Shown piece by piece: positions 37,448 to 46,401 of a stretch of 64,000 nt of DNA; position 1 is the first letter of the stretch, and every line of letters begins with the position of its first letter. Source of the DNA: Candidatus Gastranaerophilales bacterium (lineage in GTDB: Bacteria; Cyanobacteriota; Vampirovibrionia; Gastranaerophilales; Gastranaerophilaceae); the NCBI GenBank assembly GCA_944326545.1, contig CALVEH010000008.1, positions 1-64,000 of the forward strand, written 5' to 3'. The notes under the pieces are model-generated. The model was given only the letters and a program-made list of their open reading frames with translations, made no database searches and was not told the origin of the DNA. The position numbers and the translations under genes were made by a program.

Positions 37448-37574
37448 TCGTTCTCCAAAAAATCCATTTAACAAACCGCTATGTTTGTAACAATTTTTAA
37501 ACAATCTTTATATTTGATATTTCATTTTACTACAAAAGTGGTATCATAACATGTTAAAAAAGGGAAAAAGATTT

Positions 37575-38117
37575 ATGAATGTTACTGCTGTATCCGCGAT
37601 TAAAAATAATCGCTCTAATTGTTGTGTGAAAAAGACAGAAGAAAACAACCCATCTTTTAAGGGTGTTTATTTAAAGGGATTAAAACAAAACGATATCTTA
37701 AGCTTGTACGAAGATGGTCCTGCTATTTGGAGAATGATACAAACAGTTACTCCTCAATTAAAAGAAAAATACCCAATGTTCCATACTATTATTGAAGTTG
37801 GCAGGGATTATTTCCGAGGCATTTCTGTTTCATTCATGAGAAACAAAGCTTACGACAATCAATTAAAAAACTACATTGTGCAAAAGAACTCAAGTTCTTT
37901 TCAGTTCCCACAATTTGTAGTTGATTCTTTTAGGGCAGGTAGCGATGATTTTGCAGGATTTCTTGATGGAAAAAATTTCCGCGCTATAAAAATGCGTTTT
38001 GGAAACCTTGGTGAACAACAAGCAACACAAAAATTTATGCAATTTATTCGTTCTCGTGACCAAGATTTTCTTATACGAAAAATGTACGAAATAGATGCAC
38101 CAAAAATAACAGCTTAA
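37575..38117 (+). CDS. Lineage-specific protein with N-terminal F-x-G motif
   Basis: A 180-residue protein of unknown function. The Asn/Lys-rich leader MNVTAVSAIKNN ends in PSFKG (residues 26-30), the signature shared with six other proteins here. The body is a mixed alpha/beta globular domain without signal peptide, membrane segment or catalytic motif I know. The frame opens at 37551, but AGGGA lies 9 bases before the ATG at 37575, so that start is used. The next gene on the strand (38160) carries the same signature. Confidence 0.65.
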   Translation: MNVTAVSAIKNNRSNCCVKKTEENNPSFKGVYLKGLKQNDILSLYEDGPAIWRMIQTVTPQLKEKYPMFHTIIEVGRDYFRGISVSFMRNKAYDNQLKNYIVQKNSSSFQFPQFVVDSFRAGSDDFAGFLDGKNFRAIKMRFGNLGEQQATQKFMQFIRSRDQDFLIRKMYEIDAPKITA

Positions 38118-38159: not shown

Positions 38160-38855
38160 ATGAAAATAAATGCAATAAACAGTCAAAATTACGGTAAAGT
38201 GAAAAAACAAAATAAAAATAACACATCTTTTGAAGGCCGTGTCCAATATTATGAATGTATAAAAGATGTTATTTCAGGCCAAAATGTTGATTTAAGATTA
38301 GAACCTTTAAGAACACTCTTGGCAAAAATCATACCACCACTACAAAGACTTGAAGATGATAATTTGATTATTACAATAAGCGGAACTCAAAAGAAAGCTG
38401 GCTTTTTTGATATTTTTTCACCAAACACCCCTGCACAAGGGCTGAAATTTGATTTGGGATATTTCGATTTAAAGAAATTTTATAATAAATTTATGTCAGA
38501 TCCAGAATTACCTAAATTCTTAGATCCTGACGTTTTAAAAGGCTTCCAAAGAAAAGACGAAGCACTTATGGATACTTTGTATGAAACTGTAGGGGTCGGT
38601 AAATTATACCATCCTGAATATGGAGAAACACCAGAACAATATATTGCAGAAGTTATGCCTAAAATACAAGAGCATTTAAGAATAATGCCTAAACTTATTT
38701 CTGTAAGAAAAGACATAAAATACGATGAAAAATTACAGAAATTTGTGCAAACCGACGCTCTCAACAACGGAAAAAGAAAACCTTGGAACTACTATAGGGG
38801 TCTGGAATTTGACTATCCTTCAATAGGTTTCAATGATATGCAACAAGCAGTTTAA
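38160..38855 (+). CDS. Lineage-specific protein with N-terminal F-x-G motif
   Basis: A 231-residue protein of unknown function. Leader MKINAINSQNYGK followed by TSFEG (residues 22-26). The remainder is soluble, with an aromatic-rich central part (GFFDIF, DLGYFDLKKFYNKF) and no recognisable motif. AGGGTGA precedes the ATG by 6 bases. It lies 42 bp after the preceding F-x-G gene and is likely co-transcribed; no sequence similarity beyond the leader is apparent between the two. Confidence 0.62.
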   Translation: MKINAINSQNYGKVKKQNKNNTSFEGRVQYYECIKDVISGQNVDLRLEPLRTLLAKIIPPLQRLEDDNLIITISGTQKKAGFFDIFSPNTPAQGLKFDLGYFDLKKFYNKFMSDPELPKFLDPDVLKGFQRKDEALMDTLYETVGVGKLYHPEYGETPEQYIAEVMPKIQEHLRIMPKLISVRKDIKYDEKLQKFVQTDALNNGKRKPWNYYRGLEFDYPSIGFNDMQQAV

Positions 38856-38871: not shown

Positions 38872-40299
38872 CTACATGTAATATGCAACGAGCTGACAAA
38901 GTCGTATGATTTTGTCTGCAAAGACGCAAATTACTACTGAAGCAACAGCACAGGCATATAAAATATATTTTGATGAAATCACGTGTGTATCGATTACAAT
39001 TTCAGTTTCGATACGTCTAAACATTGCTCGTATTATTCTCCAGTAAGCATAAATCATAATTACTGTTGAAATCAATGCAACGAGCAAAAACGGTAAATAC
39101 ATAAAACCTGAACGAGCAACAGCAGAAAAAACATATAATTTTGCAACAAACCCGCACGTCGGAGCAAGGCCTGCTAAAGCAATAAGAATTATTGTAAAAG
39201 CTATTACATAGTACGGTCTATGATAAATTATGCCTTTTAAATCTTCTAATTTTTCAAGTTTGGCAGAGTTATAAAGTAGTGTTATTGCCGCCCAAGCACC
39301 CATATTTACAAACACATAGCAAAACAAATAGAATAAAACACTTGATAAGCTGTAAACAGAGAAAACACAAAGTCCTAACAGCATTATCCCTGACTGAACA
39401 CTCATTGAATATGCCATAAGGCGTTTAAGATTTTCCTGTCTTATTGCTGATAATGAACCAAATATTATTGTTGCAACAGCAATAAATGCCAATACTATTT
39501 TTACTGTAAATGTGTAATTTAAAAATGTCATCAATATTCTTGATAAAACTCCAAAACAAGCTAAAACAGGAACAGAAGACATAAATGCTCCTATCGGATA
39601 TCTTGCTCCTTCAAAAGTGTCCGGCAACCAACTAGAAAAAGGAACAAGCCCCAGTTTAAAGAACATCGTGCAAAGCATTAAAATCAATGCAAATGTTAAC
39701 AAAATCTGTGACTGATTTTGGCTAAAACACAAACTTACTTGGTTATAGTCAAGCTGAGCGCACATACCATAAACCAGAGATAACCCCATTAAAAATATCG
39801 AAGAAACAACAGAACTTTGCATAAGATATCCAAAAGTTAGCTGTTTTGCGTTGTTGTTTTTATTTAATGCAAGAAGTAAGTAACATGTTAAGCCCAATGC
39901 TTCTAAAGACACAAATAAAGAAACAAAATTAATAGAACTTACCGCACACATTGCAAACAATAAGCCTGATAAAAACACACAAAAATATTCTGCAGCACGG
40001 TCACGTTTTTCTCTTATCATATTTCTTGATAACAAAACAACAAAAAAACCGCTTATTAATATCAAGATTTTGAAAAATACCGTATAAATATTAGTCAAAA
40101 ACATATTATTAAAAGCAAAAGCTTCTGGATCTATTTGCAAGTATATTGTAGAAAAAAGAGCTGCAATAATACCAAGTATAGAAAACCATTTTGGCATTTT
40201 ATACGTTGAAGTATTAGAAAATAAAGAAAATATAAGATTTAATATTATAAAAATAAGTATTATAAATTCAGGCAAATATGCTGATAAAAGCTCAGACAT
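38872..40299 (-). CDS. nuoN: NADH-quinone oxidoreductase subunit N-like
   Basis: A 475-residue antiporter-like membrane subunit with about 14 helices. By recalled alignment with E. coli NuoN, the key Glu (SLEALGL, E133), the TM7 Lys (FFKLGLVPF, K215) and the C-terminal Lys (GFVAKLYVF) are kept, while the TM8 Lys is replaced (PVL at 244-246). It is thus the best preserved of the proton-channel subunits here. Last gene of the nuoJKLMN-like operon. GGGAG precedes the ATG. Confidence 0.88.
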   Translation of the reverse strand: MSELLSAYLPEFIILIFIILNLIFSLFSNTSTYKMPKWFSILGIIAALFSTIYLQIDPEAFAFNNMFLTNIYTVFFKILILISGFFVVLLSRNMIREKRDRAAEYFCVFLSGLLFAMCAVSSINFVSLFVSLEALGLTCYLLLALNKNNNAKQLTFGYLMQSSVVSSIFLMGLSLVYGMCAQLDYNQVSLCFSQNQSQILLTFALILMLCTMFFKLGLVPFSSWLPDTFEGARYPIGAFMSSVPVLACFGVLSRILMTFLNYTFTVKIVLAFIAVATIIFGSLSAIRQENLKRLMAYSMSVQSGIMLLGLCVFSVYSLSSVLFYLFCYVFVNMGAWAAITLLYNSAKLEKLEDLKGIIYHRPYYVIAFTIILIALAGLAPTCGFVAKLYVFSAVARSGFMYLPFLLVALISTVIMIYAYWRIIRAMFRRIETEIVIDTHVISSKYILYACAVASVVICVFADKIIRLCQLVAYYM

Positions 40300-40320: not shown

Positions 40321-41844
40321 TCACACCTGTAACACATCTAAAATTATACTAGAAACAGATTGATAAATTTGCATAATGCTCATAGGATTTATGCCAAAAT
40401 AAACAATAACAAGACACAATGCTGTTAAAACACTTGTTTCTTGAGGTGAAAGATCTTTAAGGCCTTTCCATTGTTCTAAAAGAACAGAACAAAATACTTT
40501 ATAAAAGAAATACAAGATGTATCCTGCAGAAACCATCATTGCGCAAAGGCCTATTGCCGCAGTGATTTTTACAAGCAACTGTTGGTCTAAATTAGATAAC
40601 ATTGCTCCTGCTAATACCATTAGTTTTGGAGTAAACATCATCAAAAATGGAATACCTATAGCAGCAAAACATATTATCAACGCAAGATACATACATTTTG
40701 GCATTACTTGTCCCAACCCGCCAAGAGCGGTGATATATGTGGTTTTTGTTCTAAATTGAACACTTGATATTACAACAAACAAAGCACTATATACTATAGA
40801 ACAAGCTATCATCATAAACACAGCACCGTTAAAACCGGTCTGGTTTAAAGAAGCCAAACCTATCATTATAAAACCGACAGAAGCTACATTTGAATATGCA
40901 ACCATCTTTTTAATACCAGCTTGTGCAACAGACAAAAGACCGGCATAAACCAAATTTACAATACCCCAAATCATTAATATCGGAGCAAATAACTTAAATA
41001 TTTCTGGGAAGACCTGCATATTAAAACGAATAAGTCCATATACACCTGTTGCAAACATTGTACCAGCCAACATAATATTTACAGGCGCAGCAGATTTGCT
41101 TTGTATATCAGGATACCAGTTGTGAAAAGGAACAAAAGGAACCCTGATAAGAAAACCGATGAGGAAGTTTACAAAAACCATTATCTGAAACCACATCGGG
41201 TATATTTTTTCATCCATGTTCAAAGATTCTATATTAGCCGTTAAAACGTTGCTTACAGCAAAGTTGTAATAATACAAAATCAACATTCCAAAAAACAAAA
41301 ACATATTAGCGACAAAAGAAGATAAGGTGAATTTTATAGCAGCACCTCTCGCTTCAGAATTGCCCCATTGAGATACGAGAAAATAAACAGGTATGAGCAA
41401 AAGTTCCCAAAAAACAAAAAACAAAAACATATCTTTTGCACAAAATATACCTAACACAGCAGATTCCAGCAAAAACACCATTGAATAATACAGTTTATGT
41501 TTTGTTCTGATGTGCATTTTACTCATAAACAAGGTTATTAAAACAATAAATATTGTTAAAACTGATAGCAAAAGGGTCATTCCGTCAACAGCAAATTTTG
41601 CACTTATCCCAAGTGTTTTTAGCCAAGTCATACCAAAGAATGTAAGCTCTTTTTCAAAAGACATTCCAAACATACTCGAGTCAAAAAACAGCAAAAACAG
41701 TAAAGAATAAACAAAATGTAGACCTGCAAACCATTTTGCAAAACGTCTTATTTTAACCTGATGATTAGGAAAAGCAGGCAACATTATTATAATTGCTGCA
41801 ATCACAGGTAGAAATATCAACCATATTAAAGATAAAAAATTCAT
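40321..41844 (-). CDS. nuoM: NADH-quinone oxidoreductase subunit M-like, with substituted channel residues
   Basis: A 507-residue antiporter-like subunit. The overall alignment with NuoM is good (FFVFWELLLIPVYF, PFVPFHNWYPD, AGIKKMVAYSNVASVGFIMIG). The TM5 Glu is retained (E147), but positions that in E. coli are K234, K265, H322, H348 and E407 read R234, A265, S322, C348 and K407 here. These are the residues known from mutagenesis to be needed for proton pumping, so function as a pump is doubtful. AGGGG precedes the ATG. 16 bp from nuoL. Confidence 0.88.
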   Translation of the reverse strand: MNFLSLIWLIFLPVIAAIIIMLPAFPNHQVKIRRFAKWFAGLHFVYSLLFLLFFDSSMFGMSFEKELTFFGMTWLKTLGISAKFAVDGMTLLLSVLTIFIVLITLFMSKMHIRTKHKLYYSMVFLLESAVLGIFCAKDMFLFFVFWELLLIPVYFLVSQWGNSEARGAAIKFTLSSFVANMFLFFGMLILYYYNFAVSNVLTANIESLNMDEKIYPMWFQIMVFVNFLIGFLIRVPFVPFHNWYPDIQSKSAAPVNIMLAGTMFATGVYGLIRFNMQVFPEIFKLFAPILMIWGIVNLVYAGLLSVAQAGIKKMVAYSNVASVGFIMIGLASLNQTGFNGAVFMMIACSIVYSALFVVISSVQFRTKTTYITALGGLGQVMPKCMYLALIICFAAIGIPFLMMFTPKLMVLAGAMLSNLDQQLLVKITAAIGLCAMMVSAGYILYFFYKVFCSVLLEQWKGLKDLSPQETSVLTALCLVIVYFGINPMSIMQIYQSVSSIILDVLQV

Positions 41845-41859
41845 ATATAATAACCCCTA

Positions 41860-43017
41860 TTAAACCTTTATCAGTACAACATAAAAAATGAGAACAAATG
41901 CCATTATAATGACAAGTCCAAATATTGAGTAAATTAAATAAGATTGGAAATTTCCACCTTGGAAACGTCCGCTTAGATAAGCCAATGCCCTTATTAACAA
42001 ACCCGCAAAGTTGATAAATGTTTCTATAACATATTTTTCAACCCAAGCCGCCGCATAACATAGCGGTTTAAATAGCCTGTTAGCTATTCCAAAAATTAAA
42101 AATATTAGCAATATAACAGGTATTGTCCACAATACGCTGGAACCCAACTCAAAAAAGAATGGGTTTAATCTCAAAAACAAATATACACCGACTAAAGAAA
42201 GCAAACTGTTTTGATAAAGAATTATTCTTGATGTATCTGTTTTATTGCTTGATTCAAATGTTATGTATATAAACGCTTGCATAAATTTCATTATTATTAC
42301 AAATATTAGAATTGCACAGAAAAGCACAAAAACAGGGTCACTCATAAGAGAGTGAATACTTGCTGCGATATTGCCCATATTTGAATACGATAAAGCAGAT
42401 ATATCAGAAAGTTCATTGTATACAATCGAATAATACATTGTGGTGAGTACGCACAACAATAATGTTAAATCTCCAACACGGTTAAATATATATGACTTAA
42501 TGGCAGCTTTTGATTCTTCTCTGTTTTCAAAATCAAAGTTAATCAAAAGGTAACTTGCAACCCCTGCTATTTCGCAGAACAAATATGTTTGGAACAAATT
42601 GGAACTTATAAATATTCCGTTTAGCCCCAATGTAAAAAAGTTGATATACAGCAACAATCTTGAAAAATCATTGTGTTGTCTCAATTTAAAGAACGCAAAA
42701 TTTTGAATAAAAAATGCAATTACATTTATCAGTAAAAGAAAAATTGCTGAAATTTTGTCTATATACGTCCCTAAAAAAAGGTTTATATTTTCTAATTTAA
42801 TCCATTGGAAATTCTCAGTTAACGAAAGACCTTTTACTACAGAAAAATCAAAAACCGCTGCAGAGAATATCATACAAATAAAAGCAGAAACAATGCTTAT
42901 AGAAAATATTGTAGCCTTATCCAGTTTATTAGAAATCAAACGGTTAAAACCAATTATTGCACACATTATTATTGGCAAGAAAACAACAAGATTAATGTTA
43001 TCCGTAAAAAACTCCAT
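41860..43017 (-). CDS. nuoL: Shortened NADH-quinone oxidoreductase subunit L-like protein
   Basis: A 385-residue NuoL relative; usual NuoL is about 610-660. Residues ~85-310 align with the first half (Glu retained in YLFCEIAGVASYLLINF, E149; Lys in IIMKFMQAF, K244), then the sequence jumps directly to a segment resembling the C-terminal helices (WVEKYVIETFINFAG...). Roughly 200-250 residues containing the second half-channel are absent. No stop or frameshift is seen, so it is an in-frame shortening. The start codon overlaps the nuoK stop (TAATG), with AAGGAG upstream. Confidence 0.8.
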   Translation of the reverse strand: MEFFTDNINLVVFLPIIMCAIIGFNRLISNKLDKATIFSISIVSAFICMIFSAAVFDFSVVKGLSLTENFQWIKLENINLFLGTYIDKISAIFLLLINVIAFFIQNFAFFKLRQHNDFSRLLLYINFFTLGLNGIFISSNLFQTYLFCEIAGVASYLLINFDFENREESKAAIKSYIFNRVGDLTLLLCVLTTMYYSIVYNELSDISALSYSNMGNIAASIHSLMSDPVFVLFCAILIFVIIMKFMQAFIYITFESSNKTDTSRIILYQNSLLSLVGVYLFLRLNPFFFELGSSVLWTIPVILLIFLIFGIANRLFKPLCYAAAWVEKYVIETFINFAGLLIRALAYLSGRFQGGNFQSYLIYSIFGLVIIMAFVLIFYVVLIKV

Positions 43018-43343
43018 TAGTTCTCCTTATCTTTGATTTTTTCGGTATCGAGATATTCATTTGCTTGATAAATTTTATACAGTATAACAAGCGCAATTAC
43101 TGTTTGAATAACGGCTAATATGAGTATAAAAATACTCAACATATTAACTTTTTCCATCGTTCCGTCACAATAATAACCAAACGCAACGAAATTCAACACA
43201 ACAGAAATAGTCATTATAAAAAGCGACATCACCGCTCTTAACATATTTCTTGAAATTAAAACCCCAATTAACCCTGTCATAAAAAGAAATAAAGACAGAA
43301 AAAGATAGTGTATTAATCCAACATTAAATATAATATCTGTCAT
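43017..43343 (-). CDS. nuoK: NADH-quinone oxidoreductase subunit K-like, lacking both key glutamates
   Basis: A 108-residue three-helix subunit with NuoK layout (FMTGLIGVLISRNMLRAVMSL; NFVAFGYYCDG). The two membrane glutamates essential in E. coli (E36 and E72) are F42 and Q80 here by alignment from memory. It overlaps nuoJ by 4 bases (ATGA) and nuoL by one base, so translation is coupled across the operon. Confidence 0.8.
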   Translation of the reverse strand: MTDIIFNVGLIHYLFLSLFLFMTGLIGVLISRNMLRAVMSLFIMTISVVLNFVAFGYYCDGTMEKVNMLSIFILILAVIQTVIALVILYKIYQANEYLDTEKIKDKEN

Positions 43344-43867
43344 TCTTTCTCCTCGTTTTTGGGCATTTGTTTATTTAATGTACTATCCAAAAAAGCTCTT
43401 AATACTGTAGCAGAGACAAAAACAAATATTCCTATCAGTGATAAAGGATACAGGTAATTTTTAAAATTTACAGAGTCAAAAGAATTTTCAACAGAAGTAT
43501 TAAAAAATGCATACAAAGAACTGTCGAATTCTTGAGTAAAATACATAATAGATAAAGTTGCCAACAAAATTATAAACACACTACTCACAATAATTTTTGA
43601 AGCAGGTGCAAGTTTTAGCCCCAGATTAATTCTTCCGATTTTTTTCAACAATAAAAATATGTATGCAGACAAAATCAGTCCGCACAATATAAATTGAAAA
43701 ACAGAAAGATAAACAGCATTTAACGACAAATACATTAAACTGGTAAAACAAACTAACAAGAATAAAGACAATACCGCCATGTACATTCTTGGAGCCAAAA
43801 TAACTCCTAATGCACTTGAACAAATGGCAAAAAACAGAATATAAAAATAAATTATGTTTAATACCAC
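43340..43867 (-). CDS. nuoJ: NADH-quinone oxidoreductase subunit J-like
   Basis: A 175-residue membrane protein with about five helices, divergent but with the NuoJ arrangement (FYILFFAICSSALGVI, then PRMYMAVLSLFLLVCFTSLMYL). First gene of the operon. The frame opens with TTG at 43888, but GGAG 8 bases before the GTG at 43867 makes that the better start. Identification rests partly on position before nuoK. The peripheral-arm genes (nuoB-I) are not upstream: the next gene is divergent. Confidence 0.72.
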   Translation of the reverse strand: MVLNIIYFYILFFAICSSALGVILAPRMYMAVLSLFLLVCFTSLMYLSLNAVYLSVFQFILCGLILSAYIFLLLKKIGRINLGLKLAPASKIIVSSVFIILLATLSIMYFTQEFDSSLYAFFNTSVENSFDSVNFKNYLYPLSLIGIFVFVSATVLRAFLDSTLNKQMPKNEEKE

Positions 43868-43967
43868 CCTCTTGTCTCCTGTAAACAAACTGTTACCTTA
43901 TTTATTTATATCACATGTCACAAGTGTTATAATAATAATGTTGTGAATTATTAAGTTTAATTTTTGT

Positions 43968-44630
43968 ATGAAAAAAATAATATATATTCTTTTAACTTTA
44001 TCATTTTTGATTTTACCTTTTTATACAACAAAAGGTAACGCTCAGGAAAACGAAGATGCAATACTAACTCCTAATGAATATTGCGCCAAGGGTGATAAAA
44101 TTTTGGCTCACTATGAAAAATTAGAAGACAAAACTGATGCATCAAAATATCTAAATGCAGCTAAATACTATTATTACCAAGCTGCAAGATTAGATATTTC
44201 AAACCAAAATTCAATGGTGGGAGTTGCTAGAGTCGCACTTTATAAAGGTAATACAAGAGATGCAAAAAATGCTCTTATGGTTGCATTAAATGTAAACGAA
44301 AACAATCCCAAAGTTAATTATTATCTTGGCGAAGCGTTTTTTGCCGAGGGCGAGTATTTTCAAGCCATCGATTTTTATACGCACGCTTATTCAAATGGAT
44401 TTTCTCAAGATTACAATACAAATTTAAAACTTGGCATTTGCTACGAAAAACTGGATGATACCAATAAAGCAACATTCCATTACAATAACGCTTTAAAAAT
44501 AAATCCTAATTCTCAAGAAGTCAAAGAAAGACTAAAATATATGAATGCATCAGAAAATGCATACAGAGATGAAGAAAATGAAGTTATAGATGCAAAAGAT
44601 CTTGAAAAGCTTAATATGCCAAATCTTTAG
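43968..44630 (+). CDS. Exported TPR protein
   Basis: A 220-residue protein with a Sec signal peptide (1-~25, ending near GNA-QEN) and about four tetratricopeptide repeats: ~60-90, 92-120 (NSMVGVARVALYKGNTRDAKNAL), 121-155 (PKVNYYLGEAFFAEGEYFQAIDFY) and 158-188 (NLKLGICYEKLDDTNKATFHY). TPRs mediate protein contacts; a periplasmic scaffold is the likely role. No SD is evident. Divergent from the nuo operon. Confidence 0.82.
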   Translation: MKKIIYILLTLSFLILPFYTTKGNAQENEDAILTPNEYCAKGDKILAHYEKLEDKTDASKYLNAAKYYYYQAARLDISNQNSMVGVARVALYKGNTRDAKNALMVALNVNENNPKVNYYLGEAFFAEGEYFQAIDFYTHAYSNGFSQDYNTNLKLGICYEKLDDTNKATFHYNNALKINPNSQEVKERLKYMNASENAYRDEENEVIDAKDLEKLNMPNL

Positions 44631-44811: not shown

Positions 44812-46401
44812 ATGAACAATGTGCAATTTCACAGTGACCTGGATAGGTTAATTGAAATTCTACCGCCAAAGATTACAAAATGTTTAAGCCATGAAACATT
44901 AGACGACGTAATTGAACTGGTTTTAGATTTAGGCAGACAGCCCGAAATAAGGCATGCTGATGGAACTATTGATTATCTCGGTGATGATAATATTGTAGAC
45001 GAAGATATAAAATACATCACTGACAGAGTTCAAGAGTTTACTAAAGATAATCGTTCGGGAATCCCCGGCACGTTGCACAGAATAAGCGCAATAAGAAACA
45101 GACAAGGAAAAATTGTAGGTCTTACCTGCAGAATAGGGAGAGTTGTAACAGGAACTATCGCTTGTATTAAAGATTTTGTCGTACAAAATAAAAGTATTTT
45201 GTTCTTAGGACGACCGGGTGTAGGTAAAACGACTAAATTGAGAGAAATCTCAAGGCTTGTCGCTGACGAATTGCATAAACGTGTAGTTGTTGTTGATACA
45301 TCTAATGAAATAGCAGGCGACGGTGATACTCCTCACCCTGCAATAGGTCACGCAAGACGTATGCAGGTTACTCAACCGGAATTTCAAAAAGATATAATGA
45401 TTGAGGCTGTTGAAAACCATACGCCGGAAGTCATTGTTGTTGACGAAATAGGTACAGAAGCAGAAGCTCAAGCAGCAAGAACAATTGCTGAACGTGGTGT
45501 TATGCTGATTGCTACAGCTCACGGTAACTCACTTGAAAACCTTATAAAAAACCCTGTCTTATCAGACTTAGTTGGTGGTATTCAGTCTGTAACACTAGGT
45601 GATGACGAAGCAAAAAGAAGAGCTTGTCAAAAAACAGTTTTGGAAAGAGAAAAACAACCAACTTTTGATATTGTTATAGAAATTATTGACAGAAACACGC
45701 TAGCTGTATATCCAAATACAGCAGAAGCAGTTGACTGCATCTTAAGAGGCTGGCCAATTAAGCCTGTCATAAGAAAAGTTGATATGACACAGCCACCTGA
45801 ACCTAATCTTGTTGAAAAAATCAATCAACTGGACAGCAAAATTACCTCTGCCAATAATGCTTTGAATTTCAGTTTTTCAAGAGAAAAATACGTAAATGAA
45901 GTTAAGGGATACAAAAAGATTTATATTTATGCAGTATCTCGCTCTATTATGGATAAATCTATTGAAAGATTAAATCTCAATGCAGAACTGACTAAAAACA
46001 TTGACGATGCAGATATCATTATTGCTCACAAAAACTTTGCAAAAGGTGGCAATAAAATATTGAGTATTGCAAACGAATACAGATTACCCGTTTATTACGT
46101 TCGTTCAAACTCAACATCTCAAGTTCAAAAAGTTTTAAAAGAAGCCTTGGGTTTAAAAGATGATAACAGAATAGTTTTCCACGATGAGACAGAAGAAGCA
46201 CTTGATGAAGTAAAAGAAGCTATTCAAAAAGTTATGGAAACCGGTGAATCAGTTGAACTTTCTCCGCAATCTCAACACATAAGAAAATTGCAGCACGACC
46301 TTGTTGATCAACATAATCTTTCATCAACTAGCATTGGCGAAGGTGAAGACAGACATTTAAAAATCATCGGTGCTAAAGACTTAAAACAAGATATAGGCTA
46401 A
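44812..46401 (+). CDS. ycf45: Ycf45-type AAA ATPase with C-terminal R3H domain
   Basis: A 529-residue protein of the cyanobacterial/plastid Ycf45 family, whose ATPase resembles SpoIIIAA. Residues ~1-110 are the N-terminal domain; the ATPase has Walker A GRPGVGKTT (~129-137), VDTSNEIAGDGD, Walker B VIVVDEIG and ATAHGNSLENL. After a linker, ~365-470 holds a domain with YAVSRSIMDKSI, and ~485-525 an R3H-like single-strand nucleic-acid-binding motif (R-x3-QHDL...). Cellular role not established. It is one of the best lineage markers in the window. Confidence 0.88.
   Translation: MNNVQFHSDLDRLIEILPPKITKCLSHETLDDVIELVLDLGRQPEIRHADGTIDYLGDDNIVDEDIKYITDRVQEFTKDNRSGIPGTLHRISAIRNRQGKIVGLTCRIGRVVTGTIACIKDFVVQNKSILFLGRPGVGKTTKLREISRLVADELHKRVVVVDTSNEIAGDGDTPHPAIGHARRMQVTQPEFQKDIMIEAVENHTPEVIVVDEIGTEAEAQAARTIAERGVMLIATAHGNSLENLIKNPVLSDLVGGIQSVTLGDDEAKRRACQKTVLEREKQPTFDIVIEIIDRNTLAVYPNTAEAVDCILRGWPIKPVIRKVDMTQPPEPNLVEKINQLDSKITSANNALNFSFSREKYVNEVKGYKKIYIYAVSRSIMDKSIERLNLNAELTKNIDDADIIIAHKNFAKGGNKILSIANEYRLPVYYVRSNSTSQVQKVLKEALGLKDDNRIVFHDETEEALDEVKEAIQKVMETGESVELSPQSQHIRKLQHDLVDQHNLSSTSIGEGEDRHLKIIGAKDLKQDIG

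Follow-up and report, generated by a model that had tools for sequence, protein, structure and literature searches.

We propose, with a probability of roughly 0.7, that the nuoM gene at positions 40321-41844 of the window (the whole 64,000-nucleotide stretch of Candidatus Gastranaerophilales DNA analysed here) encodes a subunit of an orphan membrane arm of complex I, NuoJ to NuoN, that descended in place, is predicted to be proton-tight and would serve a non-redox task. The gene lies on the minus strand, the plus-strand translation of the same interval being full of stops, and is the fourth of a tight, isolated minus-strand cluster of five genes, nuoJ-K-L-M-N. Its 507-residue product scores 365.8 bits against the NCBIfam model TIGR01972 (cut-off 263.8), has cyanobacterial NdhD1 (6hum_D, E 3e-72) as its closest solved structure and is predicted by AlphaFold2 to adopt the whole antiporter fold (pLDDT 89.8, pTM 0.91).

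The sequence-only reading of this gene had held that, on a numbering almost free of gaps, NuoM carries R234, A265, S322, C348 and K407 at positions needed for proton pumping, with only the glutamate of TM5 kept. Two separate MAFFT L-INS-i alignments, each of more than 50 rows and including E. coli NuoM taken from NC_000913, agree on every one of these assignments: relative to E. coli the changes are K234R, K265A, H322S, H348C and E407K, E144 (residue 147 of the window protein) is the sole residue retained, and the numbering is identical to that of E. coli from 234 on. No shift restores a Lys or Glu in either alignment, which rules out an alignment artefact as the source of the changes. The codon for A265, which stands where the middle (TM8) lysine would be, was computed from the open reading frame and the alignment to lie at 41050-41052 on the minus strand. 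The same pattern runs through all 30 sequences of the window's clade, and chance or sequencing error is thereby excluded: E144 and R234 are present in 30/30, K265 and H348 in 0/30 and K407 in 29/30 (Arg once), and Q248, K250, T369 and C384 are among the other residues that are fixed or nearly so in a clade-specific manner. The claim that these are lost pumping residues holds for K265, H348 and K234 (Arg here); K265 is found in 15/16 and H348 in 16/16 full complexes of the order. It does not hold for H322, which varies among the full complexes (His322 in just 5/16) and is therefore not diagnostic, nor for E407, since E. coli NuoM with E407K alone still pumps at about 1.5 H+/e- according to the available portion of PMC9271201.

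The other products of the cluster are likewise of the complex I type, and NuoK, L, M and N group with full complexes in a combined tree. The first gene (43340-43888, minus strand, 182 residues) is nuoJ-like: its match to PF00499 (E 4.5e-4) falls under the Pfam cut-off, and an HMM from the relatives' full operons, up to 16 of which were used to build such locus models for the subunits, recognises it at E 4e-11. It overlaps by four bases with nuoK (43017-43343, minus strand, 108 residues; PF00420, E 1.6e-17), which in turn overlaps nuoL by one base and whose product has lost both membrane glutamates (E36 to F and E72 to Q in E. coli numbering). NuoL itself (41860-43017, minus strand) has 385 residues instead of the usual ~610. 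Its profile match (NF005141) is confined to profile positions 5-291 of 615, and the protein aligns to full-length NuoL over residues 1 to ~306 plus the last ~75, with TM1-9 fused directly to the C-terminal lateral helix and TM16 and with TM10-15 absent (helix numbers following the E. coli NuoL scheme). In the AlphaFold2 model (pLDDT 85.6), which matches NdhF/NuoL and has 6l7p_F as its best Foldseek match, TM9 extends into a single long helix spanning residues 285-353, after which comes the last TM. E144, D178 and K229 are retained in NuoL, while H254 is replaced by Q. The frame, the identical deletion and a length of 384-387 residues recur in all 30 clade sequences, ruling out an assembly or frameshift artefact. 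The spacing is 15 bases between nuoL and nuoM and 21 bases between nuoM and nuoN (38872-40299, minus strand, 475 residues; TIGR01770, 282.8 bits with a cut-off of 332.6); NuoN retains E133, K217 and K395 and shows the replacements K247 to V, K158 to G and E154 to Q.

Divergent from the cluster on the plus strand lies a gene with TPR matches and a signal-like N-terminus (43968-44630). It is followed by a gene for a SpoIIIAA-like ATPase protein (44812-46401, plus strand; TIGR02858, E 4e-21, under the cut-off) that has a weak Jag/EloR match at its end and, in many members of the clade, accompanies the cluster in highly conserved form. On the other side, and beside nuoN in only part of the clade, are two adjacent plus-strand genes without assigned function (37551-38117 and 38160-38855) whose products have an N-terminal SFKG/SFEG motif in common. 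Neither the list of open reading frames nor profile searches revealed further complex I genes adjoining the cluster, which consists of J to N only; it contains no hydrogenase large or small subunit, and the profile matches of its genes include no DabA, the protein that accompanies a NuoL-like partner in DAB inorganic carbon transporters.

The host genome (2.19 Mb in 19 contigs, 99.95% complete) offers no redox arm elsewhere. Genome-wide family searches revealed no complex I NuoA, NuoB, NuoD or NuoH, NuoA giving zero matches in this genome, and the single members of the NuoB, NuoD and NuoH families all lie in an Ehr-type operon on contig C9, so that a displaced redox arm is ruled out for these four subunits. 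NuoC and NuoI, sought in the loci only, were not found near the cluster. Thus, the frame in which the NuoM changes had been read, that of a subunit of a complex I, is wrong: the redox arm is absent, NuoK, NuoN and NuoL show matching losses, and the channel of NuoL is halved.

The Ehr-type operon (L006:8779-15682) comprises six hydrogenase-like genes, two of which encode antiporter-like subunits; on visual inspection, the large subunit seems to be missing two of the four cysteines of the [NiFe] site, as in Ehr complexes. Its presence in the host genome raises the possibility that the orphan arm docks on another redox module of this kind. Within the window's genus, however, NuoM is present and stop-free in 23/23 genomes, yet 17 of these lack the NuoB family, the remaining six always having an Ehr-sized frame (247-286 residues), and 8 of 12 sampled genomes lack the NuoD family, which is Ehr-sized in all four that have it. 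An operon that encodes its own pair of antiporter-like subunits is, moreover, a poor candidate for such a partner. We rejected docking on the Ehr-type complex from its patchy presence, the genomes without Ehr contradicting it, and regard docking on another redox module, this one included, as very improbable. Ehr and group 4 [NiFe] hydrogenase-type complexes have NuoL/M, NuoH, NuoB and NuoD homologues in common, as described in the accessible part of PMC6349859, but the operon here is separate from the cluster and missing in most of the genus. The available text of PMC3787301 reports from gut Melainabacteria both a six-subunit complex of the Ehr kind and a complex I with 11 subunits.

This 11-subunit complex I (NDH-1 without NuoEFG), reported there from gut and aquifer Melainabacteria, is the direct ancestor type of the cluster. 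The two share the locus, the J-K-L-M-N order, the TPR neighbour and the bacterial order; by contrast, the cluster lacks NuoA, B, C, D, H and I, its NuoL is halved, and the TM8 residues and the NuoK glutamates are gone. From respiratory complex I (NDH-1) it differs in that complex I NuoA/H and NuoB/D are missing from the genome and the proton-path residues are lost. Among relatives the operon occurs in three states: A-B-C-D-H-I-J-K-L-M-N, with 11 subunits; A-H-J-K-L-M-N, from which exactly B, C, D and I are missing (L069, L087 and L090, with which L070, a locus ending at a contig edge, was grouped); and J-K-L-M-N (the window's clade and L092). The divergent TPR gene lies beside the cluster in 29/29 clade loci and beside 7/15 full operons whose upstream side is in view. 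Since it flanks both clusters and full operons, genes were lost from an existing operon, and the cluster is shown to descend in place from the relatives' 11-subunit complex I, having shed NuoA, B, C, D, H and I. The TPR gene as a new partner of the arm is weakened as a candidate, as full operons are flanked by it too.

In the K+L+M+N tree, three changes to the orphan state are required, each made unavoidable by well-supported branches; placing the orphans in a single clade is rejected (p-AU 2e-16), and the RUI120/goat pair is the sister of the RUG12906 full complex. With RpoB as the marker the number of changes is four, of which two are forced, and g18 nests next to the full-complex genome G152. 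A shared origin for all of the orphans is rejected on the K-L-M-N tree, with the caution, which applies to any tree-based count of origins, that L092 and L087 sit on long branches and that L092 is very divergent and weakly aligned. The trees thus appear to force three or more independent losses of the redox arm. A separate orphan lineage (L069:4557-5990 and L070:1307-2749) has NuoL proteins of 478 and 481 residues whose internal deletion differs from that of the window's clade.

In the species-level genome collection, 29 records, most of them labelled Candidatus Gastranaerophilales, show the same J-K-L-M-N arrangement with the short NuoL. One further label stands out: L060 (CAMEWS010000008.1) is titled uncultured Clostridia, yet has the nuoJ-N cluster and the neighbours of the Gastranaerophilales clade, and is probably a mislabelled MAG. 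A NuoL match was obtained in 66 of the 192 genomes of the order sample; by manual count, 43 of these have a complex I-type NuoD (including G030, counted as full though its NuoD is split across contig ends), nine just the longer Ehr-type and 14 none, and the 23 orphan genomes are spread over five genera (g1, g16, g18, g23 and g26). Across the class, NuoM was found at E<=1e-60 in 87 of the 146 genomes searched, and, by manual comparison of the result tables, a NuoD match was missing among these 87 in four genomes besides that of the window (G205, G216, G229 and G294, with 260, 160, 120 and 830 contigs, respectively), which we take as assembly gaps.

The middle residue of the proton path is lost wherever the arm is orphaned. 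Over 16 rows of full complexes, the TM8 residue is present as K265 of NuoM in 15/16, K247 of NuoN in 15/16 and H254 of NuoL in 16/16; in orphans of five lineages it occurs in 0/35 NuoM, 0/34 NuoN and 0/35 NuoL (L092 having a gap there in NuoM, L070 having no NuoN in view, and duplicate records, in which a G-handle equals a named locus such as L079/L064 or L080/L061, being omitted from the site counts). Within the window's clade, the TM8 Lys/His of L, M and N and Glu36 of NuoK are each found in 0/30 sequences; NuoK Glu36 is also gone in three other lineages and retained in RUI120/goat. By contrast, the clade keeps most of the ion pairs: the TM5 Glu is retained in L 30/30, M 30/30 and N 27/30, and the TM7 Lys/Arg in L 30/30, M 30/30 and N 29/30. 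At TM12, NuoN keeps its Lys in 30/30 and the NuoM Glu has become Lys in 29/30 and Arg once. Elsewhere the ion-pair Glu has changed as well, being Gln in M and gone in L of RUI120/goat, and gone in both L and M of g18. Taken together, the losses show a predicted proton wire broken in every subunit: at TM8 of L, M and N, at both NuoK glutamates and in TM10-15 of NuoL. The loss of the TM8 lysine is not strictly tied to that of the redox arm, given the one exception among full complexes, G152 (L085), from whose M and N it is gone. This locus has a complete A-N operon, its NuoM is without the TM5 Glu, the TM8 Lys and the TM12 Glu and its NuoN without the TM8 Lys, and its state is possibly a step preceding the loss of the redox arm.

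Such losses could be meaningless if the cluster were a decaying relic whose J-N genes drift under relaxed selection. A halved NuoL channel, a NuoJ scarcely recognisable by profile and dN/dS values that climb from M through N, L and K to J would suit this explanation; indeed, the clade medians (from pairs with dS 0.2-1.5) are 0.082 for M, 0.121 for N, 0.191 for L, 0.215 for K and 0.378 for J, so that NuoJ, K and L evolve faster than M and N. Yet in four close pairs dN/dS is 0.015-0.058 for M and 0-0.049 for N, resembling the 0.025-0.063 of RadA, a housekeeping neighbour, in the same pairs. NuoM and NuoN are therefore under purifying selection at housekeeping level, which denies decay at least for these two, and the strongest constraint falls on NuoM. 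Nor does relaxed selection sit well with a nuoM free of stops throughout the genus, with a NuoL frame held at constant length across the clade, with NuoM R234, NuoL Q254 and NuoK Q72 fixed in 30/30, or with loss of the TM8 residue in each orphan lineage. We consider a relic quite unlikely.

For the retained arm, work on isolated modules provides a comparison. As reported in the part of PMC11496545 available to us, Nqo12 and Nqo13 of Thermus, each isolated, conduct protons when placed in liposomes; conduction is blocked by Nqo13 K235M or E377Q, or more generally by replacing the middle Lys in Nqo13 or the terminal residue in either protein, and removal of the ion-pair Glu speeds it up. The accessible text of PMC3046159 adds that mutating the conserved TM7 lysines abolishes function. 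Like the cluster, these engineered modules are antiporter-like subunits without a redox arm, and the middle Lys whose change blocks conduction in Nqo13 is the residue lost here. The Thermus modules, however, are laboratory constructs that conduct in wild-type form, whereas the cluster is a natural five-subunit set with its channels cut.

We suggest that the five J-N proteins may still assemble as a membrane complex. An intact arm without the gating redox arm would be expected to short-circuit the membrane potential; because the redox gate is lost and the arm would leak, we read the repeated loss of the middle residue as a plug, for which the loss of the lysine would have been selected. The kept TM5-TM7 pairs may hold helices in position, and the proton-tight complex would retain some other task, non-redox in nature and with NuoM and NuoN at its centre, either as a scaffold or as a transporter of another substrate, both of which fit.

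Conservation of the ion pairs, and of a TM12 lysine in M and N, could point to some surviving ion path. The Mrp multisubunit cation/proton antiporters are redox-free and have NuoL/M/N- and NuoK-like subunits; they are marked by an MrpA-type L subunit with a C-terminal MrpA/B extension, MrpD-type M/N subunits and a middle Lys. An ion transporter of the Mrp kind, acting through the TM5/TM7 pairs and the TM12 lysines as a redox-free cation/proton antiporter or a new anion conduit, would account for a redox-free set whose J, K and L/M/N members have counterparts among Mrp-type subunits, and the NuoM TM12 change from Glu to Lys or Arg together with the NuoK Glu losses shifts the membrane axis to a net positive charge. 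However, the middle TM8 residue is missing from all three antiporter-like subunits, the second half-channel of NuoL is deleted, leaving that protein shortened and not extended, and NuoL/M/N models, none of MrpA, MrpB or MrpD type, top the matches of the cluster. We therefore hold an Mrp-kind transporter to be unlikely, and keep to the proton-tight orphan arm as the preferred reading. More broadly, we lean modestly towards the view that complex I can shed the redox arm entirely and live on as a membrane complex of a new kind: at least three gut lineages would have done so independently, each with a cut at the same middle residue, and in one genus the J-N remnant would have become a conserved, proton-tight machine that is possibly an anion path or a membrane scaffold and has NuoM at its core.

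Titles and abstract openings of the papers retrieved contain no description of a complex I membrane arm without the redox arm in these bacteria, and no such orphan arm is described in the available portion of PMC8235220, on complex I in Melainabacteria. As far as its accessible text goes, PMC12361115 lists 2,171 species with incomplete complex I sets, and orphan-arm cases may be sitting unnoticed in its tables. The residues of the gated pump and the role of a lone membrane arm have so far been studied via engineered mutants. Here, nature has repeated the experiment: each time the redox arm disappeared, the middle Lys needed in vitro for conduction is gone too, with the ion pairs mostly retained in the best-sampled clade. 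The prediction is that an arm without its gate does harm unless it is plugged. That a gut genus related to cyanobacteria strongly conserves just the membrane half suggests a proton pump turned into something else, and annotated nuoL/M/N genes in gut Melainabacteria do not imply respiration or proton pumping.
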